DNA of 64,000 nucleotides from a candidate division FCPU426 bacterium (GTDB lineage Bacteria > Oederibacteriota > Muellerivitia > Muellerivitales > Muellerivitaceae), in NCBI GenBank assembly GCA_030041545.1, contig JASHNQ010000028.1, positions 1 through 64,000 of the forward strand, in the 5' to 3' direction. Below the pieces are notes generated by a model that was not told the origin of the DNA, did not search any database, and was given only the letters and a program-made list of their open reading frames with translations. This document shows, piece by piece, positions 8,522-36,757 of the stretch. Position 1 is the first letter of the stretch. Each line of letters starts with the position of its first letter. The position numbers were made by a program, and so were the translations under genes.

Positions 8522-8648
8522 GAAATCGTCGGTCACCGCGCCCTGGCCCTTCGATGCGCTTCGCTTACTCAGGGCATTCCCCAAGCCCTTCTTTCAATGG
8601 CCGATCCGGCTGGCACCTAATTAGAAATCGTCGGTCACCGCACCCTGG
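8522..8648. repeat. 25-bp direct repeat: copy of the ilvD 3' end
   Basis: Bases 8522-8546 repeat 8624-8648 with one change (G for A). The second copy is the last eight codons of ilvD (QGAVTDDF); the first copy stops at the last sense codon and lacks the stop. The 77 bases between contain a CCCTTCGA...CTCAGGG repeat of the type also found at 31889. It looks like a tail duplication made by an insertion. Confidence 0.8.
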
Positions 8649-10303
8649 CTCGCCGAGGAAACCAAGCGGACGTATTTGCCCAGCACTCCCTTGGGGTAAG
8701 GCGAAGGGATGGGCTTCCACTTGGCCTTGCGCTTCTTCAACTCCGATGCGGCCACGTGGAGCTCCAATTTCTTCTTTTCAGCGTCAATGGTGACCTTGTC
8801 GCCGTCCTTAATGAGGCCGATGGGCCCGCCCACCTGGGCCTCGGGGGCGATATGACCGACCACCAGGCCATGGGTGCCTCCGCTGAAGCGCCCGTCGGTG
8901 ATAAGCCCCACCTTTTCCCCCAACCCTTGGCCCACCAGGGCCGCCGTAATGGCCAGCATTTCCCGCATGCCGGGGCCGCCCTTGGGGCCCTCGTAACGGA
9001 TGACCACCACGTCGCCCGCCTTGATCCTTTTCTTTTGGATGGCCTCGAAGGCCGCTTCCTCGCCGTTGAAAACCTTGGCTGGCCCCGTGTGGGTGACGGC
9101 CTTCAACCCGGAAATCTTGGCCACCGCGCCTTCCGGGGCCAAATTGCCCCTCAAGATCACCATGGGGGCGGTGGGGTAGAGGGGTTTGTCCAGGGGGCTG
9201 ATGATGGGCTGGTTTTTCGAAAGGGGTGCGGCCAGCTCCAGGTTCTCCGCCACCGTCTTGCCGGTGACGGTCAGGGAGTCTCCGTGCAGGAGCTTCGCCT
9301 CCAGGAGCAGTTTCATGACCGCGGGGATGCCGCCGATGCGGTCCAGGTCCGCGGCTACGTGTTTTCCGCTGGGCTTCAGGTCCGCCAAGTGGGGGACCTT
9401 CTTGCCGATGCGGTCGAAATCCTCCAGCGTGAGCTTGACACCCACGGCCTTGGCGATGGCGATCAGGTGCAGCACGATGTTGGTGGAGCCGCCCAGGGCA
9501 AAGCCCACGGTGATGGCGTTCTCAAAGGCTTTTTTGGTCATGATGTCCCTGGGGCGGATGCCCTTCTTCAGGAGCTCCACCACGGCCTGGCCGGCCCGGT
9601 CGCAGATCAGGCGCTTGGGCTCGCCCACAGCGGGCTGGCAGGAATCGTGGGGCAGGGCCATGCCCATAGCCTCGATGGCCGAGGCCATGGTGTTGGCCGT
9701 GTACATGCCGCCGCAGGAGCCGGGCCCGGGGATGGCGCATTTCTCGATCCGCTCCAGCTTGTCGTGGCTGATCTTATGGGAACTGTATTGGCCCACCGCC
9801 TCGAAGACGGAGACAATGTCGATGTCCTTGCCGTCGCACTTGCCGGGAAGGATAGTGCCACCGTAGATGAAGATGGCGGGAATATTGAGGCGCCCCATGG
9901 CCATGAGACAGCCTGGCATGTTCTTGTCGCAGCCGCCGATGGCCACCAGGCCGTCAAAGCGCTCGGCGTTGGAAACCACCTCAATGGAATCGGCGATGAC
10001 CTCGCGGGACACCAGGGAGAACTTCATGCCCTCGTGGCCCATGGCGATGCCGTCGGAAACCGTGATGGTGCCGAAAACCTGGCCGAAACCTTCGGCGGAA
10101 ATCACCCCCCGCTTCACCCGGTCGGCCAGCTCGTTCAAGTGCATGTTGCAGGGGGTCACCTCGCTCCAGGCCGAAGCCACGCCGATGATGGGCTTCTGGA
10201 AGTCCTCGTCCTTGAACCCCACGGCCCGCAGCATGGCGCGGTTGGGGGCCCGTTTGTCCCCCTCGGTCATCATCGATGAACGCTGATTGAGCTTGGTCTT
10301 CAT
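8621..10303 (-). CDS. ilvD: Dihydroxy-acid dehydratase
   Basis: 560 aa, full length. It dehydrates 2,3-dihydroxy-isovalerate and -methylvalerate to the 2-keto acids in valine, leucine and isoleucine synthesis (cytoplasmic iron-sulfur enzyme). The three cluster ligands are visible: Cys52 (TPCNMH), Cys125 ([10 protein letters not shown]) and Cys197 ([12 protein letters not shown]). The C-terminal [20 protein letters not shown] motif is intact. The ATG at 10303 follows AGAAAGGA. A palindromic element (10338-10433) separates it from bcp. No other branched-chain gene lies nearby. Confidence 0.97.
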
Positions 10304-25461: not shown

Positions 25462-27174
25462 TTATTTGAAAGCCAGCATGTCCGGCGCCAATTTGGGCTT
25501 CCCGATATCGGGCCCCTTGTCCACCGTCCACATTTTCCCGTCCCCCTTGACCGACCATATTTTTTCGGCGATATGCTCGCCCAGCTTCCGGTAGCCTTCC
25601 CATTCCTCCTCGGAATAAAACTGGTTCACGGTGGATTCCTGCGGGAAATCGCCGTGCTGTTGCCGGTAACTAGCCAGGTCCAGGGGTTCATCCCCGGTCA
25701 GGCCGGGCTTGAGGATGAGGATCAGGCTGTGTTCCTTATCCGGCCTCCCGGGATAACCCACCCAGGCCAGGAGACCGTGCTTTTTGCACTCGGGCTGGTC
25801 CGACCCCGGCGCTTTCACGGTGAAGTTATCCAGGGAACCCAGGAAGTTCTCCACTAGTGTCGGGTCCACGTTGTCTATAAGGTCCTGTTGGCTGTAGAAG
25901 GTGATTTCCGCCTGGAAGTCGTTGCGCGCCTTCAGGACCATCCGGGCGAAGTCCTCGAACTGGTACTGGGGGTCCTCCCCGGTATCGCAAAGGATGATGA
26001 AAGGGATCCGCCTGCGGATTAGCTCGTAGCAAGCGGTGTTCTCGAAATGGCCCCCGTCCGAGAGGTTCCAGAACCGCCGGGCCGGGCCATGGAAACGGGC
26101 TGACAGCTCGTCTAGGAGGTTGTGCTGGACCGGAAAATACTTCTCCAAATAAGTGGAAATTTTGGACCAGAGGCCTTTCGGGTTCCGGTTCTTCTGGGCC
26201 GCGGCGGATAGCCGGCTGTTCCACCAGTAGCCTAGGCGGATATTGGCCAGGCCCAAAAGCAGGCTGTAAATGGGGTTGGTTTGGTAGCCTAACCCGGTGC
26301 CCATGGCCGCGCCCGAGATGGAAACCCAGGACCCCAAGGTGGGGGATTCGACGGGCTGGTAAAGGTCCGCCGGGGTTCCTTTCCTGTGTCCGAAGGTTGC
26401 GATCCGAAGAAGGAAATCCTTGGTTTTGGTCCAGGCCGTGGCGTACCACGGGTTGTCGGTTTCGAACACATGAAACTGGTAATTTCTGTCACCGGGTTTG
26501 CTGTCGGATTTTTCGATCATGATGGGGCTCAGTCTTTCATAGGAGGGATGCAGCGGGCCCCCTTCCCAGAGGGAATGGTGGCGGATGTCGACGGTCAGGC
26601 CGCAGGGACCCACCGCCAGGGACAGGCCTTTGCGGTCCTGCTCCTCAACCCTCGATTTTTCGTTGATGGTTTCATTGAGGGTGGTGTTGATGATGTGGAG
26701 CGGGCCCCCGTTATCCGCCGGGGAGTATCGGCTCATCTCCGTGTCGTCCCGGTACAGGTCGACCGGGGAATCCTGCTTGGAATCGTCCTTGCAGTCCGCG
26801 GCCCCTAGGTAGGCGTTGACCAGCCTGGAACGGTAGAGCGGATGCTGGGAGGAGTAGTTCAGGAACGTGACCGTGTTTCCGATGCAGTAACAGACGACCC
26901 CCAAAAACGGCCAGACCAGCCAGGAATACCAAAGACTGTCATGGAAGTAGGATTGCTCCAGGTAATGCACCGACAAGGTGACAAAGGCCACGATCAAAAG
27001 GAACCACGCGGCGGCGATGATCCCCAGGATCACCAGCTTCAAGACGCCCGGCATTTTCGCGTTTTTGTCCTTCATTTGCGCCGTGATTTGGTTGCCGATG
27101 AAAGAAAGGGCGGCCGCGAGGAGGGGCGGGACCGTCAGGCTGGTGACATTGTGTTCGGAAAAAAATTCCACCAT
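25462..27174 (-). pseudogene. Patatin-like phospholipase, C-terminal part (reached by -1 frameshift)
   Basis: 570 aa of open frame. It begins with three membrane segments, then a soluble region with two conserved patatin-family blocks: WVSISGAAMG...GYQTNP with LANIRLGYWWNS, and NLSDGGHFENTACYELIRRR, whose Asp would be the second member of the Ser-Asp dyad. The nucleophile Ser is not here but in 27711-28190. The frame overlaps the middle part (27135-27704) by 40 bp; a run of seven T (27159-27165, minus strand) lies in that overlap, and a -1 slip there joins the frames. The ATG at 27174 could also start it separately. Together the three parts reach about 920 aa, the length of intact large patatin-like proteins. 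Confidence 0.75.
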
Positions 27175-27704
27175 TTATCTTCGACAAATTTTTGACCAAA
27201 CCAGTCCGCCAGGGCCCAGGCCAAGGTCGCCAAGAGAAGGAGGCACCCCAACCAGAAGGTCCCGGTGAAGGAAGACCTTAAGCCCCCCCAGAAATCGCTA
27301 TTAGGGTCCTTAAGCTTGCGCCGGATACCCTGGATCACATACAGGATCATGTAAACGAAGCTCATCCAGCAGACGGCCGCCACGACCCAGGAAGCGTACC
27401 GGAGGCCGTCGACCGGGCAATTGACCCCGAAGCAACTGCAAACGATAGCCATGACGGCTATGCCTGCGGAAGGCCCGAGCAGGATGGGCTTTCCAGGATC
27501 CCCCAGGCAGAGCCAATAGCCCAAGCCGGCGGGCAGGACCCAGAACAAAAGGAAAATCACCGGCAGGATCAGCAAGGAACTGCAAGGCAGATCCCCCGTA
27601 TTCCAGAGGAGCCAGAGTTTGTTGACCGGCTCGTTAATGTAGGCCGCGAGCATCATGCCGCTCTGCGCGATGAAAAGGCCGAACAGGAGGTACACGACGT
27701 TCAC
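27135..27704 (-). pseudogene. Patatin-like phospholipase, middle membrane part
   Basis: 189 aa from a GTG at 27704, in the same frame as the N-terminal part and separated from it only by a TGA at 27711-27713 and two codons. It has five or six hydrophobic helices (NVVYLLFGLFIAQSGMMLAA, LLILPVIFLLFWVLP, WVVAAVCWMSFVYMILYV). Large bacterial patatin-like proteins have such a membrane block between catalytic Ser and Asp. It ends in the T7 region, where a -1 shift leads into 25462-27174. Confidence 0.7.
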
Positions 27705-27710
27705 GGTCGC

Positions 27711-28190
27711 TCAATTGCGGAGGCAAATCGCCAGGTCGACGAACAGGCTGATGGAACCGCTCGGGGCGAGGTACCGGCCGTGGTCGCGCAGCCATTTCAA
27801 GGGCGGGGAGGTATTGTCCGACAGGATTTCTTTGACCTGGCCGGGCGTGTCCTGGTGAACCTCGAAGAGTTTCCTCAGGAATCCTCCGAAATAGCCGCCT
27901 CCCGAGACCGTGGAAAGCCAGTCGATTTTTTTCAGGTAATCCAGGCGCGCGAAAGTTTGGAAGATCCCCAGGCTGAGGGTGGCGCTGCGGATTCCCCCGC
28001 CCGAAAGGGCCACACCGATGGCGGGACCCCTCCGCTTCTTTTCTTCTTTTTCCCATTTTTCCCGGCGCTTCTCAATCAGGCTTTCCTCCCATGTCTTTAA
28101 GTCTTTGGGATAATAAGAGTTCGGGTATATATCCTCGTAAGGAGGCGCGACCGCCTTTGTCGAAGGATTTTCTTTTTCGGATGATTCCAT
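27711..28190 (-). pseudogene. Patatin-like phospholipase, N-terminal catalytic part
   Basis: 159 aa from the ATG at 28190, which has GGGAGGG upstream; a second ATG at 28202 is possible. After a Lys/Glu-rich helix (EKRREKWEKEEKKRRG) come VALSGGGIRSATLSLG, the oxyanion-hole motif, and DWLSTVSGGGYFGGFL, with the nucleophile Ser in the GxSxG-type turn. It stops at an in-frame TGA right after YLAPSGSISLFVDLAICLRN, a place where related proteins continue into membrane helices. Patatins hydrolyse acyl chains from membrane lipids; here activity would need read-through plus frameshift, or assembly of split subunits. Confidence 0.75.
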
Positions 28191-28264
28191 GTTCCCTCCC
28201 ATCGGTTTTTTAGGTTTCCTGGAATTATTTTGTGGCGGCTATTTATTTTGCCCTTACTGGCTTT

Positions 28265-28904: not shown

Positions 28905-30254
28905 ATGGCCGATAGCAAACCGGGACGTCGTTATGTAGAAACAGGTTTTGATAAATTTCTCAAGTTCTTTTCGATATTTTTTACTTTTTATTCGATCTTC
29001 ATTGCCGGTTGGGCTTGTAATCTTGGAATTCACAAATTGGAAAATCAGCAAGGGTATTTCGCAAAAGCTTCATGGTTTTTATATCCTTTATGGTATTGGA
29101 GCGCTTTTCTTTTCGCGATATGGATTTCTCACCGGTTTAAAGACGCGTGGGTGAGTTTTTTTGATAAGAAACACGGAATAATTTACCAGGGGAAAAAACG
29201 AGGCGCCGATCCCCAGGCGAATGCCGATTTAGAAAAGGTTGTTGAAACTTGGCGTTGGATATTAATGTTGGTGGGTCTTGTTTTGGGATCCGGGATAGTT
29301 TGGTTTTTTGGCTATGTTCCGCTCAGCAATATCCCTGATAAATTCGACCGAATTGGTATAGATACTTCTTCAATCGACCTCAAAATTAATAAGCAGGACT
29401 TGGATGGCGGGGCAATTCTGTTGCCGGTTAATTCCCTGGACAAGCAGGATGGCAAATCGGATTCAAAGATTATTAAAGGTACCCTCCAAATAGTTGGTCA
29501 CGCCGAAAAAGCCGTAACAATGGTTTGGATGGACTCCAATGACTTTATGAGTTTGAAAAGCGAAAAGAAACAATATGTCCGTTGGTTCATGATTCAAAAA
29601 GATAAAAATGACATTATCAAAGACACTCAACCCAGGTACCCGCTTGATTTCGAGACCTATGGCCTTATCACTAATGACTCTTCTCGGAAACCCGAATTCA
29701 GGAGTTTTAATTTATTCGCGCAAGTACAAGAAATAGCCATCTTCGTGGTTGGAATTTCAGCGTTATGGAGTCTCTGTATCAACATTATCCTGTTTTTTTG
29801 CTTTGACCGGACCAAGATTCATAAAAAATACAACCTGGCCATGTCGCTCGATTATCAATCCCCTTTCAAGGAATTTGGCCTGGAACACTGGAACAACGTA
29901 TTTAACGATATGTATCTCATAGCCGCGATAGGTTTGTTTGTCCCAATCATTTCGCGCGCTGATTTTATAAAAGGCACAGCGGGAGTTGGAATACAGGATG
30001 CCATGGATGTATGTATCGTGGTTTTTGTTTTTGCCCCACTCTTGGCGGAGATATTCCTGCGGCGGATTAAGGTGCGGGAAGCCTTTTCCGCGATGAAAAA
30101 GAAGGAAACAAAAGAGAATTCCCAGAAATTCATGGACCAAACTCTTTGGCCATTTGACCGGGACTATGCCGGGAAAATTGGGTTTCTGGCTGTTTTATTC
30201 GAAGTCTCTTATCTTTTAACTGGTATGTGGGGGAATATTTTTGGGATATTTTAG
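28905..30254 (+). CDS. AT-rich multi-pass membrane protein, unknown
   Basis: 449 aa. I recognise no family. Hydrophobic segments lie at about 15-38 (FLKFFSIFFTFYSIFIAGWA), 58-77, 117-140 (LMLVGLVLGSGIVWFFGYV), 277-300, 337-352, 358-385 and 428-447. A soluble domain of about 130 residues separates the third and fourth (DKFDRIGIDTSSIDLKINK). Codons are clearly more AT-rich than in neighbouring genes (many TTT, AAA, ATT), which suggests recent transfer. It lies between palindromes, next to the broken patatin gene and the Fic cassette, so it is part of the accessory stretch. Confidence 0.8.
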   Translation: MADSKPGRRYVETGFDKFLKFFSIFFTFYSIFIAGWACNLGIHKLENQQGYFAKASWFLYPLWYWSAFLFAIWISHRFKDAWVSFFDKKHGIIYQGKKRGADPQANADLEKVVETWRWILMLVGLVLGSGIVWFFGYVPLSNIPDKFDRIGIDTSSIDLKINKQDLDGGAILLPVNSLDKQDGKSDSKIIKGTLQIVGHAEKAVTMVWMDSNDFMSLKSEKKQYVRWFMIQKDKNDIIKDTQPRYPLDFETYGLITNDSSRKPEFRSFNLFAQVQEIAIFVVGISALWSLCINIILFFCFDRTKIHKKYNLAMSLDYQSPFKEFGLEHWNNVFNDMYLIAAIGLFVPIISRADFIKGTAGVGIQDAMDVCIVVFVFAPLLAEIFLRRIKVREAFSAMKKKETKENSQKFMDQTLWPFDRDYAGKIGFLAVLFEVSYLLTGMWGNIFGIF

Positions 30255-30311
30255 GGAGAAATAAATAAGCCATGGTCGTGGATGTAATTCGATTTTGGGT
30301 ATTTCATTTTT

Positions 30312-30636
30312 TCGGAACTATGCGCTTGGCAAAGCAGGCTACGGCACTATCGCGAAGAAACAACTTCCCCCTCTGAAAGAGGGGGATGAGAGGGGAAGTT
30401 AGCCTTTGCCGATGGTTCCGACAAAGACTAATACCCCCCTGCCCCCTTTTTCAAAGGGGGGAACTGGGCTTGCTTTGCCAAGTGCATAGTTCCCTTCGGG
30501 AATTTAAGCCCCCCTCACCGGGTTCGACTCCCTTCGGCCGCTCACCGCAAGCCTACCCTCCTGCCCTGAGGTTCTCGAAGGGCTCCCGCAATGGGCGAGG
30601 GTTTTTGGTAAGTTATGCCAAGCGCATAGTTCCGAA
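30312..30636. repeat. Cluster of GGAACTATGC(G/A)CTTGGC repeats
   Basis: Plus-strand copy at 30312-30335 and two inverted copies at 30471-30493 and 30611-30636, all variants of GGAACTATGCGCTTGGCA; another plus-strand copy is at 24862-24887. Between them are CCCCCTCTGAAAGAGGGGG-type hairpins and the 84-bp repeat (30511-30594). The copies can pair with each other, so the whole 30312-30636 block can fold as nested stems. The gap 30255-30788 contains no gene. Confidence 0.75.
30511..30594 (-). repeat. 84-bp dispersed repeat, copy 2
   Basis: Inverted copy of 19700-19783 with about four mismatches, placed inside the cluster of GGAACTATGC repeats. Confidence 0.85.
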
Positions 30637-30716
30637 AAACAATTATTAGAGGTACCCTTAATGGATTGGAATCAGAAGAATTTAATCCGAACAAAAAAGC
30701 GGAGTGCCGGTTTGAA

Positions 30717-30764
30717 TCAGCTTCCTGTGTCCAGGCGGTACTTGGCGAAGGACTACTGGGCAGG
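30717..30764 (-). repeat. Gene-tail copy R3
   Basis: Copy of the 3' end of the gene at 32887-33555, 44 of 48 bases identical, starting exactly at its stop codon (TCA on the plus strand). Reading gives PAQ-stop-SFAKYRLDTGS: one nonsense and one missense change, so it is no longer coding. It bounds the Fic gene on its downstream side. Confidence 0.85.
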
Positions 30765-30788
30765 CTACGCCCGGCGGATTCCCAACCC

Positions 30789-31772
30789 CTAACTCTGCCC
30801 CATTTTCTTCCTAATCTCCCCAAGTGACAACCTTTCGCTTTGAAGCTCCCGGATGCGCTTGGCGTGGTCCACGGCCTCCGGTGGGTAGAGGGTATAACCT
30901 GAATCTGTATGGCCGGCTGTTGGGAGGAGGCCTTCCTTGGTCCAGTGGCGCAGGGTGGCCACGGTTTCACCGGTCTTTTTAGATAGTCCGCCAATACGAA
31001 GCAATTTGGAAGCGACGGTGCTTGCCTTGGGGCTCTTTCCCCTAGCGGCCTCCAGGTAAATGTCCAGGGACCGGTCAATGGCTTTGACCATCAGCTTTTC
31101 ATAGTCCACCAGGCTTCTCCCTAACTGAGCTTTTTCCAGGCTGTTCAAGTAGGTCACGCGTTCCCGGGGTTGGATAAAGGCGGGGGGATAACCACCGCGC
31201 ATCAAAAGCAGGTTCATCAAAAGCCGGGCGGTGCGGCCATTGGCATCGATGAAAGGATGGATGCTCACCAGCCGGTAATGGGCCTGGGCGGAAAATTCGG
31301 CGGGGTGCATGGACGGATGGGATTTGAGCCAGTCCGAAAATTCGGCCATGAGCTCGGGGACCTTCCGGGGATTGGGCAGGACCACGGTAGAACCCGCTAT
31401 CCGGACCGGCATGGAGCGGTACCGGCCGGCGTTGGCGTCGTCGATGTCCCGGAGGATGATTTCGTGAAGCGCGAGGATTTCTTTTTCGCCGACGGGGTGT
31501 TTGGGGGAGGCGGCCAGTTCCTTGACCCAATCCAGGGCCTTCGCGTGGTTGGAGGCCTCCAGGTGCTCCTTGAGGGTTTTGCCGCCGACCGTCAGGCCTT
31601 TTTCCAAAACGACCGCTGTTTCCTGGCGGGTCAGGGTGTTGCCCTCGATGGCGTTGCTGGTATAAGTGAGTTCCACCCGGAACCATTCCTCCAGGTTTTT
31701 CACCAGTTCCGGCTTCAGGGGCCTCAGGGCGTCGAGGCGTTTTTTCTTGGGGTTGAGGCTATGCCAGTTCAT
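30789..31772 (-). CDS. Fic family protein with C-terminal MerR-type DNA-binding domain
   Basis: 327 aa. Fic enzymes transfer AMP or other phosphate-containing groups to target proteins. The inhibitory helix motif SNAIEGN (Ser39-Asn45, S/TxxxE(G/N)) is N-terminal, and the core is HPFIDANGRTAR (172-183), with the His and Arg needed for transfer. Residues about 257-326 (LLRIGGLSKKTGETVATLRH, then GYTLYPPEAVDHAKRIRELQ) look like a MerR winged helix, not the usual Fic C-terminal domain, so it may regulate its own expression. It lies between the gene-tail copies R2 and R3. Start ATG at 31772; no strong ribosome site. Confidence 0.88.
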   Translation of the reverse strand: MNWHSLNPKKKRLDALRPLKPELVKNLEEWFRVELTYTSNAIEGNTLTRQETAVVLEKGLTVGGKTLKEHLEASNHAKALDWVKELAASPKHPVGEKEILALHEIILRDIDDANAGRYRSMPVRIAGSTVVLPNPRKVPELMAEFSDWLKSHPSMHPAEFSAQAHYRLVSIHPFIDANGRTARLLMNLLLMRGGYPPAFIQPRERVTYLNSLEKAQLGRSLVDYEKLMVKAIDRSLDIYLEAARGKSPKASTVASKLLRIGGLSKKTGETVATLRHWTKEGLLPTAGHTDSGYTLYPPEAVDHAKRIRELQSERLSLGEIRKKMGQS

Positions 31773-31888
31773 AGCCTAAAGTATAAAGTGTAACGTTATG
31801 GTTTACAAGGTTCGGCGGCGGGGTCGTTTGGCTAAGGAGGGGAAGTGGTTGGGTTAAGGAAGAATCCGTTAACTCGTCACTCCCAACC

Positions 31889-31930
31889 CTTCGATTTTAC
31901 TCAGGGCCCTGAGGCTCTCGAAGGGCTCCT
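31889..31930. repeat. CCCTTCGA/CTCAGGG palindrome
   Basis: CCCTTCGA...CTCAGGGCCCTGAG...TCGAAGGG: perfect ends and a perfect CTCAGGG-CCCTGAG centre. It shares GAGCCCTTCGAGAGCCTCAG with the 84-bp repeats. It lies beside tail copy R2 in the gap 31773-32016. Confidence 0.75.
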
Positions 31931-31948
31931 AATTCCTAACTTTGTGTA

Positions 31949-32000
31949 TCAGCTTCCCGTGTCGAGACGGTACTTGGCGAAGGCCTGCTGGGCGGGATCA
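31949..32000 (-). repeat. Gene-tail copy R2
   Basis: Copy of the 3' end of the gene at 32887-33555, 48 of 52 bases identical, again starting exactly at the stop codon. It encodes NDPAQQAFAKYRLDTGS, the same peptide as the resident gene; the differences within this peptide (GAC/GAT, CGC/CGT, CTG/CTC) are synonymous, so it evolved as coding sequence. The reading can be followed upstream for a few residues (VRDFL) before it runs into the end of the gene at 32017. Confidence 0.88.
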
Positions 32001-32016
32001 TTCAAGAAATCCCGGA

Positions 32017-32277
32017 CTAAAGGGGAAACGCTCTTTCAATATGACGTAAAATCCTATCGGACTCCTCCGTCGTAAAATCCGACCCGTAAAACCTCAAAAA
32101 AAGCCTGCGGCGCATCTCCTTGGGATCGTCCCGGCCTAACTCCTTCCGGATGCCCGCCATGGCCAGTTCCTTCGCGGCGGAAAACATCTCGCGGCCCATC
32201 CGGAAACGCTTCGCTGGGGCAATCTTTTTCCAAACCTCCATATACCGTTTTTCCATTTCGGGGGAAGTATCGTTCAT
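32017..32277 (-). CDS. Small basic helical protein paired with a nucleotidyltransferase
   Basis: 86 aa. Starts MNDTSPEMEKRYMEVWKKIA and has FRMGREMFSAAKELAMAGIR and RRRLFLRFYGSDFTTEE, mostly predicted helix. Its ATG overlaps the stop of the preceding nucleotidyltransferase gene by 4 bp (ATGA), so the two are translationally coupled. Such pairs (short helical protein with a minimal or AbiEii-like nucleotidyltransferase) often behave as toxin-antitoxin systems. The family is not one I can name; the role is inference from pairing. Confidence 0.7.
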   Translation of the reverse strand: MNDTSPEMEKRYMEVWKKIAPAKRFRMGREMFSAAKELAMAGIRKELGRDDPKEMRRRLFLRFYGSDFTTEESDRILRHIERAFPL

Positions 32278-32822
32278 GGCTTTAATTCCTCAAGCTGCCG
32301 GGAGATGCCCAGGGCCAAGGCCCATTTGTTGAGATAAGCATAATCCAGGTTGTGGGTCAGAGCCAATAAACTCCGGACGTCCCGTTTTTGAAAGTCCGAA
32401 CCCGTATTTTTTGCCCATTCCAGTTTGGAGAGAATAAGGTCCTCGGGAGCGGCAACGAACAATTTGGAACCATCTTCTAATTCCATTTGCCGTCGGCGAA
32501 GGAATTCCGTTTTACGGTACTCAAGGTCTTTTCGGATGATAAAGTCGACCTTGCTTGCCCATTTTTCGTGGATGGCGTTAAACATGGTATGGCCCTCAAC
32601 GGCCCTCTTGACCTCGGATTCATCCAAGTAAAATTCGGGGGAAAAAAGCCGGTGAAATTGTGGAATATGGTAAGAATCCAGCTCAACTACAAGGTCAATA
32701 TCGCGGGTCATACGAGGTTGGGCATAGAAATCCAACGCCGCCGACCCGGTGAGCATGTAGGGAATTCCAGCCCTTTCTAAAAGAGAAACGACGAGCTTGA
32801 TGAGCTCTAGCTGTTCATTCAT
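32274..32822 (-). CDS. Nucleotidyltransferase (DUF6036/AbiEii-like)
   Basis: 182 aa. Nucleotidyltransferase core: MLTGSAALDFY (Gly26-Ser27), TRDIDLVVE with metal-binding Asp41 and Asp43, and KVDFII with a third Asp at 92. The C-terminal half (LFVAAPEDLILSKLEWAKNT, then RDVRSLL) is typical of the DUF6036/AbiEii-like group. Likely transfers a nucleotide to RNA or protein and may be the toxic half of the pair with the 86-aa protein. It lies between gene-tail copies R1 and R2. Confidence 0.8.
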   Translation of the reverse strand: MNEQLELIKLVVSLLERAGIPYMLTGSAALDFYAQPRMTRDIDLVVELDSYHIPQFHRLFSPEFYLDESEVKRAVEGHTMFNAIHEKWASKVDFIIRKDLEYRKTEFLRRRQMELEDGSKLFVAAPEDLILSKLEWAKNTGSDFQKRDVRSLLALTHNLDYAYLNKWALALGISRQLEELKP

Positions 32823-32886
32823 GGAAGAATATTAGCACGCCTGGGAAAGAGGGGCACTAATGATGGCCGGCGAAAGCTTTTAAAGC

Positions 32887-33555
32887 TCAGCTTCCCGTGT
32901 CCAGGCGGTACTTGGCGAAGGCCTGCTGGGCGGGGTCGTTGGAGTCGTCCCTCAAGTCCTGCCAGCGCTGCAGGTGGTTGGAGTAATCCAGGTCCCTCAG
33001 GACCATCTCGGTGGGGCCGTCGTTGAAATGCCATTCCTTCAATAGCACGTCGTTGCCCAGGGGCTCGGGATTGCCGGTGGATTCCTTGTTCCACCGACGG
33101 TACTGCTTGGCCCACTGCTCGATGGGTTCCGCCTTGGCGTTATCCCCCTCCCACATGGCCGAGATGAAGTAAAGCTTGCCGCTGGGAATGTGGAAAAGGA
33201 GGTCCAAGGTGGTGGCCCCGGTCACCCCTTCGGAGGCGTCCAGCGAGGCGATTTGGAACTGCGGATCGTTGTTGAAGGACCTCAGCTTTTTTTTGATATC
33301 GGGGAACTTTTGGGCCACCTCGTCCAAGGTCATGCCCAGGGTGAGGCCGTCCGTTTCGCGGGGAAGGGGGATTTTGGGGCCGGCGAAAAATTCCTTGAAA
33401 ACCCCCGTGCCCCAGATGGCGCCGAGGATGAGCAGGGCGAACAAAAACCCAATGGCCTTGCCCTTCCATTGCCCGGGCGTGGGAAGGGGCGCGGAACCAG
33501 GTTTTTCGGCGGCGGGCGTCTCGGCGGCCGGAGGATGTTTGCGTCGTTGGGGCAT
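32887..33555 (-). CDS. Membrane-anchored protein, unknown; 3' end copied downstream
   Basis: 222 aa from the ATG at 33555 (an in-frame TTG at 33576 would add seven residues). After a Pro/Ala-rich start there is one membrane helix (GFLFALLILGAIWGTGVF) at about 34-52, then a soluble domain: ETDGLTLGMTLDEVAQKFPD, LDLLFHIPSGKLYFISAMWE, QWAKQYRRWNKE. The domain layout (GMTLDEVAQKFPD) resembles small periplasmic modules that begin with a GMSxxEV motif, but I cannot name a family. Its last 16 codons (NDPAQQAFAKYRLDTGS) occur again at R2 and R3, so the downstream region was built by repeated events at this gene's end. Confidence 0.75.
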   Translation of the reverse strand: MPQRRKHPPAAETPAAEKPGSAPLPTPGQWKGKAIGFLFALLILGAIWGTGVFKEFFAGPKIPLPRETDGLTLGMTLDEVAQKFPDIKKKLRSFNNDPQFQIASLDASEGVTGATTLDLLFHIPSGKLYFISAMWEGDNAKAEPIEQWAKQYRRWNKESTGNPEPLGNDVLLKEWHFNDGPTEMVLRDLDYSNHLQRWQDLRDDSNDPAQQAFAKYRLDTGS

Positions 33556-34634: not shown

Positions 34635-34880
34635 GAAACCTCTCAAGCTTTAATTTTTAAGGATGCCCTCGTTCCCACTCTTTAAATATCGGGCTGCGCC
34701 CGATGAAGGAAATGAGGGCGACCCCGTTTTCCGTGTGGGGCTGAAGCCCATTTCAAATGGACAAACTGTGGGAATTATGGTGAATTTTGGATGAGTTAGC
34801 CACCGAAAATTTAAGGCGGCCCTTTTTCCCAGTTGGGAAAAAGGACTTCTTCGCCTGTTGAAATCTGGGGCTCAGGTGCT
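34635..34880. other. Intergenic region with hairpins
   Basis: GCCCTCGTT...AATGAGGGC encloses a perfect ATCGGGC-TGC-GCCCGAT hairpin at 34688-34704. At 34821-34844 is the hairpin CCTTTTTCCC-AGTT-GGGAAAAAGG with ACTTCTTCGCC beside it, one unit of the family found in tandem at 36099-36290. Confidence 0.7.
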
Positions 34881-36062
34881 TTAACGGATGGGAAACCCGG
34901 CGCCCCCATAGGGTTCGACGTCCACGGGGGTGGGTGTGGCGGTCGGCGGGGGGGTGGGCGTGGGGGTGTACTGGCTCTCCGACGGCTTGACCACCGGCTT
35001 CAAACGGAGGATGACGTTGTTTTGGATGTCGGTGACGTAAAGGCTGTTTTGCGCGTCGGAGGCGATGCCCCGGAAGCGGGGCACATAGTTGGAATTAAGG
35101 ATTTCGTCCTTAGCCCGCCATTCGCCCAGGAAGTCGAAATCCCCGTTCCGGCTATTGTAGAAAACCACCCGGCCGCTGGTGCCGTCCGCGATGGCCGCTA
35201 TACCGGAAGGCGTGATGGCCACGCCCGAGGGTTCCTTGAAGACATAGGCGCCGTCGTCGCCGTACCAGCCCTGGATGGTCATGGGTATCCCCCCGTCGTT
35301 GTACACTTCCATGCGGAAGTTGCCGGTGTCGGCCACGATGGCCTGGTCGATGTTATTGAGCGCGAACCCCAAAGGCAAGTTAAACACCGCGGTCATGGTG
35401 TTGTCCGTGGCGTCGGTGCCAAAGGAGCCCCAGGTGGAATTAAAGAGTCCTAGCTTGCTGAAGATCTGCACGCGCGAGTTGCCGGTGTCCAGCACCCAGA
35501 TGTCGCCGTAATGGTCTTCGCCAAGGGTGCGGGGCAGGTTGAACTGGCCGGCGCTCACCCCCTGGCTTCCCCAACTGCTGACCACCAGCCCCTTTTCATC
35601 CATGACGACAATGCGGCTGTTCAAGCTGTCGGAGACGTAAACCTTCCGGTCGGGATAGACAAAGACGCCCGCCGGGTGGTTGAACTGGGGCGGGTTGCGC
35701 CAGTCCGCGCGGCTTCCGAAGGCGCCGTAAGAGGTTACGGGTTCGCCGTAGGAGTTCCAGACCAGGATGCGGTTGTTGCCCGTGTCGGCGATAAAGATGT
35801 CGCCGTCGGGCCCGATCGCAATGCCCTCGGGGTCGTTCAATTGGTTCAACCCCGAACCCTTCGACCCCCACATGGCGTCGAAAGTATAAATTTTGGGTCC
35901 GGAGGAAGGGATGGGGGTGGAGGTGGGAGTGTTGGTGGGGGTGTCGGTAGGGGTCTGGGTTGGCGTCGGCTTGCGGTGCTGCCTGGCCCCAAGCGCGGTG
36001 GGAAGGGCCAATGCCGCCATGAGAAGGAAAAGAAACGGTGGGTTACGGCCAAAGGAAGTCAT
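34881..36062 (-). CDS. Secreted NHL-repeat beta-propeller protein
   Basis: 393 aa from the ATG at 36062; the start has no strong ribosome site. Signal peptide (PFLFLLMAALALPTALGA), then a [18 protein letters not shown] linker like the stalks of the large surface proteins. Five or six NHL repeats follow (NDPEGIAIGPDGDIFIADTG, NHPAGVFVYPDRKVYVSDSL, DIWVLDTGNSRVQIFS and others), forming a beta-propeller. The C-terminus is another Thr/Pro tail (TPTPTPPPTATPTP). NHL propellers bind proteins or ligands and can be enzymes; outside the cell a binding role is most likely. Confidence 0.85.
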   Translation of the reverse strand: MTSFGRNPPFLFLLMAALALPTALGARQHRKPTPTQTPTDTPTNTPTSTPIPSSGPKIYTFDAMWGSKGSGLNQLNDPEGIAIGPDGDIFIADTGNNRILVWNSYGEPVTSYGAFGSRADWRNPPQFNHPAGVFVYPDRKVYVSDSLNSRIVVMDEKGLVVSSWGSQGVSAGQFNLPRTLGEDHYGDIWVLDTGNSRVQIFSKLGLFNSTWGSFGTDATDNTMTAVFNLPLGFALNNIDQAIVADTGNFRMEVYNDGGIPMTIQGWYGDDGAYVFKEPSGVAITPSGIAAIADGTSGRVVFYNSRNGDFDFLGEWRAKDEILNSNYVPRFRGIASDAQNSLYVTDIQNNVILRLKPVVKPSESQYTPTPTPPPTATPTPVDVEPYGGAGFPIR

Positions 36063-36098
36063 AGGAATCAATGCTACTATAAACTCAAAACCGCTTTT

Positions 36099-36290
36099 CA
36101 GGCGCACCCGTTTTCTTTATACATTCTTGAAAATGGGAGACTTCTTCGGCTGTTGAGAATGCGCCTCAGGCGCACCCATTTTCTTTATTGAAAATGGGTA
36201 CTTCTTCGTCGTTTGAGATTTTTCGACTCAGGCGCCCTTTTTCCCCTTTGGGAAAAAGGACTTCTTCACCTTTTGAAAATTGCGGCTCAG
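36099..36290 (-). repeat. Tandem hairpin units downstream of the DksA-like gene
   Basis: Three units read on the minus strand: GCGCCTGAG, a short spacer, GAAGAAGT, then a hairpin. The hairpins are CCTTTTTCCC/GGGAAAAAGG (36236-36259), CCCATTTTC/GAAAATGGG (36175-36198) and CCCGTTTTC/GAAAATGGG (36107-36137). The stems differ while both arms change together. The first GCGCCTGA is the actual end (GGC GCC TGA) of the dksA-like gene. A fourth unit is at 34821-34875 after the NHL gene. Confidence 0.8.
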
Positions 36291-36757
36291 GCGCCTTCCA
36301 GGCGGCTTTGACAGTTGATGCACCGGGTGGCCCAGGGGATGGCCTTGAGGCGGGTCATGGGGATGGCCTTTTCGCAGACCTCGCATTGGCCGTAGATGCC
36401 GGATTCGATGCGGGAAATGGCCTTCTCGATGCGGTCCAGTTCGATGCGGTCGTTCTCCATGAGCGTGACCGATAAGTGCTGGCTCAATTCGCCCGAACCG
36501 TGGTCGGCCATGTCACCAGGGATGTTCTGGTTGTCGGCGATTTCCTCCCTCAAGTCCTGCTCCAAGTGGTTCACCTGGCCGGTGATCTCGTTGCGGCGGT
36601 GCTGCAGTCTTTCCAGCAGGGGCTGGAAAGTGGGGTCCACGCGAAGCTTTTTCTTGGCGGGCTTGGCGATCAGGATGGGTTTAGCCGACTTTAAGGCGGC
36701 GGCCTTCTTGGGGTGGGAAGCGGATTTTTTCGCGGTTTTTTTCTTTTTGGGAGCCAT
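36287..36757 (-). CDS. DksA/TraR-type zinc-finger protein
   Basis: 156 aa with GGAGGAAACC before the ATG at 36757. The N-terminal 40 residues are Lys/Ala-rich (KKKKTAKKSASHPKKAAALK). A coiled-coil part follows (RLQHRRNEITGQVNHLEQDL and DRIELDRIEKAISRIESGIY). The zinc finger is Cys125-x2-Cys128-x17-Cys146-x2-Cys149, the DksA/TraR pattern. The group binds the RNA polymerase secondary channel and adjusts transcription, often with ppGpp; whether this member does so is unclear because the acidic coiled-coil tip (DxxDxA) is not obvious. Confidence 0.88.
   Translation of the reverse strand: MAPKKKKTAKKSASHPKKAAALKSAKPILIAKPAKKKLRVDPTFQPLLERLQHRRNEITGQVNHLEQDLREEIADNQNIPGDMADHGSGELSQHLSVTLMENDRIELDRIEKAISRIESGIYGQCEVCEKAIPMTRLKAIPWATRCINCQSRLEGA

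Follow-up and report, generated by a model that had tools for sequence, protein, structure and literature searches.

Displaced copies of gene 3′ ends beside accessory modules in a candidate division FCPU426 bacterium: probable scars of successive homology-anchored insertions

Introduction

In cis-mobilizable elements (CIMEs), the staphylococcal cassette chromosome SCCmec and e14 in icd, att sites lie in gene ends, and the insert restores the 3′ end of the gene while the old end is displaced. It is still not clear how chromosomal toxin–antitoxin modules pass from one genome to another when no plasmid, phage or transposon carries them. Here we describe gene X, a resident gene in a 64-kb stretch (the window; contig JASHNQ010000028.1, positions 1–64,000, C63 in our numbering) of a candidate division FCPU426 bacterium, whose 3′ end recurs twice downstream with accessory genes in between. 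The repeated tails are probably displaced X ends, left by successive insertions of cassettes that are armed with gene-end homology and integrated by homology-anchored recombination.

The closest described systems each share part of this arrangement. CIMEs, SCCmec and e14 depend on one conserved att site per integrase, whereas here the targets are unrelated, the repeats vary and the inserts contain no recognized recombinase. Homology-facilitated illegitimate recombination, reported for Acinetobacter, S. pneumoniae and P. stutzeri and for E. coli (PMC3240628), joins foreign DNA at one homologous anchor without an integrase or transposase, as seems to be the case here. It consists of rare laboratory events, whereas the insertions described below recur genome-wide at the ends of housekeeping genes, leave the gene intact and include cassettes common to several genera. 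C-terminal displacement in Rhs proteins and type VI secretion system effectors (PMC2935791, PMC5361080), for which a circular intermediate has been proposed in the case of rhs, likewise supplies a new 3′ end together with an accessory gene through recombination in the conserved part, leaves the old end downstream and stacks repeatedly. The displaced ends are in that case different toxins of one polymorphic toxin gene; here a housekeeping gene keeps the function of its end unchanged and the cargo is a separate gene pair. Restriction–modification insertion with long target duplication in Helicobacter pylori (Nobusato et al. 2000, cited through PMC1643837, PMC3031569 and PMC4978471) resembles our cases in its addiction-type modules and its long, variable direct repeats of the target. 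It is known for restriction–modification systems, whereas the cargo here is mostly toxin–antitoxin-like, the repeats end at the gene boundary and gyrB has the foreign allele as its working copy. Finally, mobile open reading frames (mORFs) of fungal mitochondria, known from Allomyces atp6 and Glomus atp6, atp9, cox2 and nad3 (PMC3630166), resemble our cases in that a foreign C-terminal end and an open reading frame (ORF) are fused onto a gene and displace a native C-terminus that matches the sister species, with synonymous divergence. The mORFs carry a homing endonuclease that drives insertion, whereas no DNA endonuclease was recognized in the cassettes tested here. What is new is the combination of housekeeping genes, unchanged end function, toxin–antitoxin-like cargo, involvement of both gene ends, stacking and cross-genus cassette families, in an uncultured phylum; it was unmatched in the literature that we found, which covers little of the subscription literature.

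Results

The host genome (G000) is a metagenome-type assembly of 3.81 Mb in 115 contigs. Gene X is confined to this family and order among 98 genomes searched, and its product matched no Pfam or NCBIfam family. On the minus strand, X is followed by a nucleotidyltransferase gene, a small partner ORF, tail 2, a repetitive extragenic palindromic (REP)-like repeat, a Fic–MerR gene and tail 3 (Table 1). The original prediction, that three copies of the X tail share one orientation and terminate at the stop codon, was confirmed. Self-BLAST E-values for the displaced copies are 2e-15 and 4e-12, all copies end at TGA, and a degenerate tail pattern (≤3 mismatches) returned just these three sites in the 3.8-Mb genome. 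Homology among the tails stops at the stop codon in every copy. The predicted identities of 44/48 (30717–30764) and 48/52 (31949–32000) also hold, but the nearer copy is longer than the 52 bp first assigned to it: it continues for a further 16 bp in register with X, making 68 bp, and starts immediately at the TAG stop of the preceding ORF. This additional stretch matches the X allele of G001, a congener and sister species, at 14/16 positions versus 9/16 for resident X, a match equalled by 8 16-mers per million in the window, and it includes nonsynonymous changes.

The codon differences listed previously are present as described, namely GAC/GAT, CGC/CGT and CTG/CTC in tail 2 and CAG to TAG and GCC to TCC in tail 3. 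The accompanying proposal that tail 2 was maintained as coding sequence was too strong and was set aside, because C to T accounts for two of its three synonymous changes, and of the 21 such substitutions that the tail could undergo, 12 are synonymous in any case. Comparison of tail 1 with G002, whose X protein is 95% identical, showed that the last 58 bp of X are the same in both genomes, whereas the whole gene is 92.7% identical. By permutation, a clean run of this length has p = 0.012 at the terminus and 0.45 anywhere in the gene. This is suggestive only, but tail 1 could have been imported with the nearest cassette from a G002-like donor.

As anticipated by the original prediction of variable cargo, the DNA downstream of X differs among G000, G001 and G002. 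An AriA/AriB-like pair (PARIS defence system) lies directly downstream of X in G001 (L023:7866–9693), and in G002 a promoter palindrome and then the remnant of a MerR domain, similar to the Fic–MerR gene, lie between a single tail and the next conserved gene. No second full-length X was found among the 98 genomes searched, the sole extra match being tail 2 in G000.

The X tail is unique to X, yet a search for further tails, as had been suggested, revealed ten genes with a displaced copy of their own 3′ end in the 39% of G000 that was scanned (1.48 of 3.81 Mb, taken as stretches). The scan collected direct repeats at most 10 kb apart with one copy spanning an ORF 3′ end, and a gene was counted when the downstream copy stopped no more than 6 bp from the stop codon. 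With the gene positions shifted, 200 trials averaged 1.8 such genes and reached 6 at most. Besides X, the clear cases are guaA, comM, an ORF on contig C69, gyrB, a DEAD helicase and metH; the weaker ilvD and ORFs on C22 and C100 were kept among the ten, and matches on C49, which represent a paralogous family, were left out. The weakest case is ilvD, which lies within the window and whose insert is absent in four relatives. Tail lengths across loci run from 26 to >400 bp (290 and over 420 bp among the longest), and the coding cargo at these gene ends is mostly toxin–antitoxin-like. The same scan of 200 kb each of G005, G006, G014 and the unrelated G091 (0.8 Mb in all) gave no cases, where about 5.4 would be expected if they were as frequent as in G000 (P = 0.0045, with only one region per genome). 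Further cases in relatives were found at comM and pirin in G001, metH in G004 and G007, which represent two further genera, and guaA in G005. Chimeric assembly was rejected as a source of the repeats, as the same structures and junctions occur in the separate genomes G001, G004, G005 and G007.

A mirror image of this arrangement is found at an addA/UvrD-like helicase gene (C91, 17776–21117), where a 157-bp copy of the 5′ end, from the ATG start codon, lies 1.07 kb upstream and the insert between the copies encodes a Phd/YefM antitoxin and a PIN toxin; gene 3′ ends are therefore not the only sites of the process. A general 5′-end scan, which is noisier, gave no second case as clear as this one.

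Insertion and displacement are most readily followed at gyrB. In G001, about 0.1 kb separates gyrB from its downstream neighbour (gyrA, judged by position and start), a clean empty site, and in G000 the MazE-type/PIN pair sits between these genes. The displaced G000 tail together with the DNA that follows it aligns with the G001 gyrB end and spacer over 140 bp at 80%. Its last 30 bp match at 27/30 positions and the next 40 bp at 31/40, versus 22/30 and 10/40 for the working tail and its flank. Since displaced tail and flank both match the sister species, the displaced copy is therefore the native end, and the insert comprises the working tail plus the VapBC pair. G002 likewise has a single guaA tail, and the DNA beyond it is orthologous to the DNA beyond the displaced tail of G000. 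As in long target duplication, the repeats are thus single-copy at empty sites, in G001 for gyrB and in G002 for guaA.

At metH, the displaced tail ends in AGG-TGA, the relatives have AGG-TAA and the working tail ends in CGG-TAG; as in the mitochondrial mORFs, a native end is displaced at both gyrB, where it matches the sister species, and metH, where it resembles that of relatives. The FitA/PIN cassette occurs at metH in G000 and in G004, which belong to different genera, and in both the displaced tail begins directly after the toxin stop. G007 carries metH, a DUF4258/MqsA-like pair, a displaced metH tail that starts right after the last stop of this pair, and then a FitA/PIN pair, which is the same layout as at X; its PIN protein is 67% identical to that of G000. 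These comparisons show one FitA/PIN cassette family at metH in three genera and, in G007, a sequential event in which a further module was inserted in front of it. The inserts at guaA (in G000, G001 and G005, absent in G002) and comM (in G000, G001 and G002) also have junctions that are constant across species. The earlier proposal of successive insertion, with a new tail brought in and the old one displaced, is thereby supported at the sister loci gyrB, guaA and metH; X itself offers no clean empty site.

Changes in the displaced tails of X, gyrB and metH are graded along their length. Within 10 codons of the stop there are 10 synonymous and 0 nonsynonymous changes, versus 8 of each farther upstream (Fisher p = 0.008, Mann–Whitney p = 0.024, in a small, post hoc test of three loci from which doubtful junction codons were dropped before both p-values were calculated). 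All 6 sense changes between the guaA tails of G005 are synonymous, and the G001 comM tails are similar. This pattern fits a displaced tail in which the 3′ part was, until a short time ago, the functional end of the recipient and the 5′ part came with the cassette.

Table 1. Features at the X locus and displaced gene ends elsewhere in G000.
Feature	Position	Strand	Tail	Description
Gene X (resident)	32887–33555	−		222-aa membrane-anchored protein; homologs in G001–G006 and G008
Tail 1	32887–32944	−	58 bp	Working 3′ end of X; identical to G002 across 58 bp
Cassette 1, gene a	32274–32822	−		Nucleotidyltransferase, AbiEii/DUF6036 type; below Pfam cut-off
Cassette 1, gene b	32017–32277	−		Small 86-aa partner ORF whose TAG stop adjoins tail 2
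Tail 2	31949–32016	−	68 bp	Displaced X 3′ end; 5′ part decayed, G001-like; last 52 bp nearly intact
REP-like palindromic repeat	31884–31928			Between tail 2 and Fic gene
Cassette 2	30789–31772	−		Fic domain plus MerR DNA-binding domain protein
Tail 3	30717–30765	−	~49 bp	Further displaced X 3′ end; one nonsense, one missense change
MITE-like repeat	30308–30639			24-bp perfect terminal inverted repeats; adjoins tail 3
ilvD	8621–10303 (feature span 8522–10303)	−	26 bp	Last 26 bp recopied at 8522–8547 across ~75-bp insert with REP-like repeat
guaA			42 bp, 98% (41/42)	68-bp hairpin insert
comM			49 bp, 100% (49/49)	88-bp insert with hairpins
ORF on C69			45 bp	Miniature inverted-repeat transposable element (MITE) plus NTP_transf_2/HEPN pair
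gyrB			about 50–57 bp	MazE-type/PIN pair, called VapBC here
DEAD helicase			290 bp	4-kb insert: RadC fragment plus methylase-like ORF
metH			102 bp	FitA-like/PIN pair

Discussion

In the proposed mechanism, each small accessory module comes in attached to the 3′ end of a foreign allele of the gene. Homologous recombination within the conserved gene would splice this end and its cargo onto the resident gene, which stays functional, and the old 3′ end would remain downstream of the cargo as a scar. Homology would not extend past the stop codon, since the intergenic DNA of the donor is unlike that of the recipient. The finished cassette would be flanked by gene-end homology, with tail 1 on one side and the displaced tail on the other, and in this two-armed form could enter relatives by a double crossover, or as a circle by a single crossover, whatever the downstream DNA. 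Alternatively, a one-sided homologous event could be completed by end joining. On the homologous side, the passage from gene to tail 1 is seamless coding sequence, and at gyrB the tail 1 allele is unlike the sister species while the gene body aligns. The junctions between cargo and displaced tail have no evident shared motif by eye; they recur in other genera, and the present copies were therefore probably transferred homologously or inherited. Toxin–antitoxin-like and methylase cargo would be retained because the host would pay for a deletion between the direct tails, so that the cargo bias is plausibly one of survivorship, with direct-repeat tails deleted unless their loss is costly and addiction as the presumed cause. 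Pfam domains in the cargo are PIN, HEPN, NTP_transf_2, Fic and antitoxins (the 4-kb helicase insert with its methylase-like ORF was outside the Pfam search), and no integrase or DNA endonuclease was recognized in the cargo tested, in agreement with the absence of a nearby integrase noted originally.

Could a recombinase nevertheless act in trans? The genome does encode nine tyrosine recombinases elsewhere, one of them bracketed by 41-bp perfect direct repeats, and such an enzyme could insert integrase-less mini-elements at att sites in gene 3′ ends by CIME-like or SCC-like tandem integration. Many tails are 42–54 bp, a usual att length, guaA is a classic integration target, and the stacking at X and at G007 metH resembles tandem att integration. 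However, the targets at X, gyrB, metH, guaA, comM, the helicase and C69 are unrelated in sequence, the tails (26 to >420 bp) have neither a constant core nor a fixed crossover, one case is at a gene 5′ end, the X core-tail pattern is unmatched in IMG/VR viral contigs, and no recombinase was recognized in the cargo. We therefore consider this explanation unlikely and do not favour the att-site analogy that was drawn originally. Integron cassettes were rejected, given that no site is shared and the repeats are locus-specific coding tails of host genes; an integron integrase was not searched for separately. Each insertion could instead be an independent instance of homology-facilitated illegitimate recombination, with one homologous crossover, one end-joining event and no later transfer of the cassette. 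Variable tail lengths and the approximately 20–100 bp of extra sequence at some junctions would be in keeping with this, and there are precedents (PMC3240628, PMC5361080). Yet the metH FitA/PIN cassette shares its junction in two genera, the guaA and comM inserts each have a constant junction in three species, and the displaced tails show graded decay. Shared junctions and graded decay therefore suggest either that homologous recombination transferred the cassettes again or that they were inherited from a common ancestor, and we regard purely independent events as a minor, though real, possibility.

Long target-site duplication, in which the ends of a staggered break (~25–100 nt) near the end of a gene are filled in and captured DNA is sealed between them, would account for tails that are identical within a genome at comM and almost so at guaA, and for the arbitrary content of the inserts (repeats, hairpins and gene pairs). 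It is very unlikely given that the gyrB tails are different alleles, with the displaced one matching the sister species, that the guaA tails of G005 differ at synonymous codons only, and that the metH junction recurs in two genera. Least credible is the alternative raised in the original prediction, decay of tandem full-length paralogues to 3′ stubs between accessory genes. A longer (>420 bp) decayed comM 3′ fragment downstream of comM in G001 is what such decay might leave, but no relative among the 98 genomes searched has a second full X, gyrB and guaA have empty sites, and the independent stubs all end at the stop codon with mutually unrelated flanks. Paralogue decay was accordingly rejected.

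Several observations weigh against insertion of gene-end-armed cassettes. X lacks a clean empty site, and the single tail of G002 precedes a decayed Fic–MerR remnant. The guaA, comM and ilvD inserts are just 68–88 bp and have no addiction cargo, and the G001 comM and pirin inserts are not toxin–antitoxin genes. The near-identical tails at comM and guaA are also what simple target-site duplication would give. At X and at metH (G000, G004 and G007) the displaced tail begins at the last stop of the cargo, which random end joining does not predict. The recombination event itself is inferred rather than observed. We nevertheless judge successive, homology-anchored insertion of such cassettes to be the probable origin of the X tails. 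A broader proposal is more tentative: the modules may be integrase-free mobile cassettes, in which a toxin–antitoxin-like module with housekeeping-gene-end homology arms on both sides is installed by the recipient's homologous recombination beside that gene in any relative. Each gene would have its own lineage of cassettes, for example FitA/PIN at metH and hairpin elements at guaA and comM, and the cassettes could be stacked and would be maintained by addiction. If gene ends do serve as portable homology arms, modules could spread between genera by host recombination machinery alone and leave a readable scar. Displaced ends would then be a simple sequence signature that is searchable in all genomes and that orders insertions in time, and would explain accessory gene pairs sitting just after conserved genes. 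The prediction is that transfer requires RecA and gene-end homology, but no integrase.

Neighbouring Features

The nucleotidyltransferase of cassette 1 has a homolog in G018 that is 49% identical and has the same kind of partner gene. A plasmid collection searched with 2.3 kb of the X region gave weak Fic matches only. The REP-like repeat is found at ~28 other places in the genome; parts of the MITE-like element match ~70 places, and related copies lie within the C69 and C22 inserts. Patatin-like split ORFs and a membrane protein gene (25462–28202 and 28905–30254) separate tail 3 from the next conserved gene, and a search of 43 other genomes gave no homolog of the membrane protein. The tyrosine integrase gene bracketed by 41-bp perfect direct repeats, which are 5.3 kb apart (L085:6115–11433), is probably part of a genuine integrated element.

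The hairpin insert between the guaA tails (TATAGTRCCGAY...; L139:1921–2030 and L137:1400–1505) is conserved in G000, G001 and G005, and the left arm of this insert and the beginning of the displaced tail are complementary. An Rfam search of these loci gave no match. The 88-bp comM hairpin insert (L166:234–320 and L167:1–65) is similarly conserved in G000, G001 and G002, and the comM tails are alike within each species, as if by gene conversion. In G001 (L168:48–5356), comM precedes HTH, TetR, NAD(P)-binding and GAPDH genes, after which comes the >420-bp comM 3′ fragment, which is frameshifted. Two genes in the window, one DksA-like and the other an NHL-repeat gene, also have stem-loop repeat units of ~70 bp downstream (36098–36297 and 34814–34882). 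Each unit opens with a copy of the last codons and stop of the DksA-like gene, and related stem-loop repeats are present at the same place in G001 and G002.

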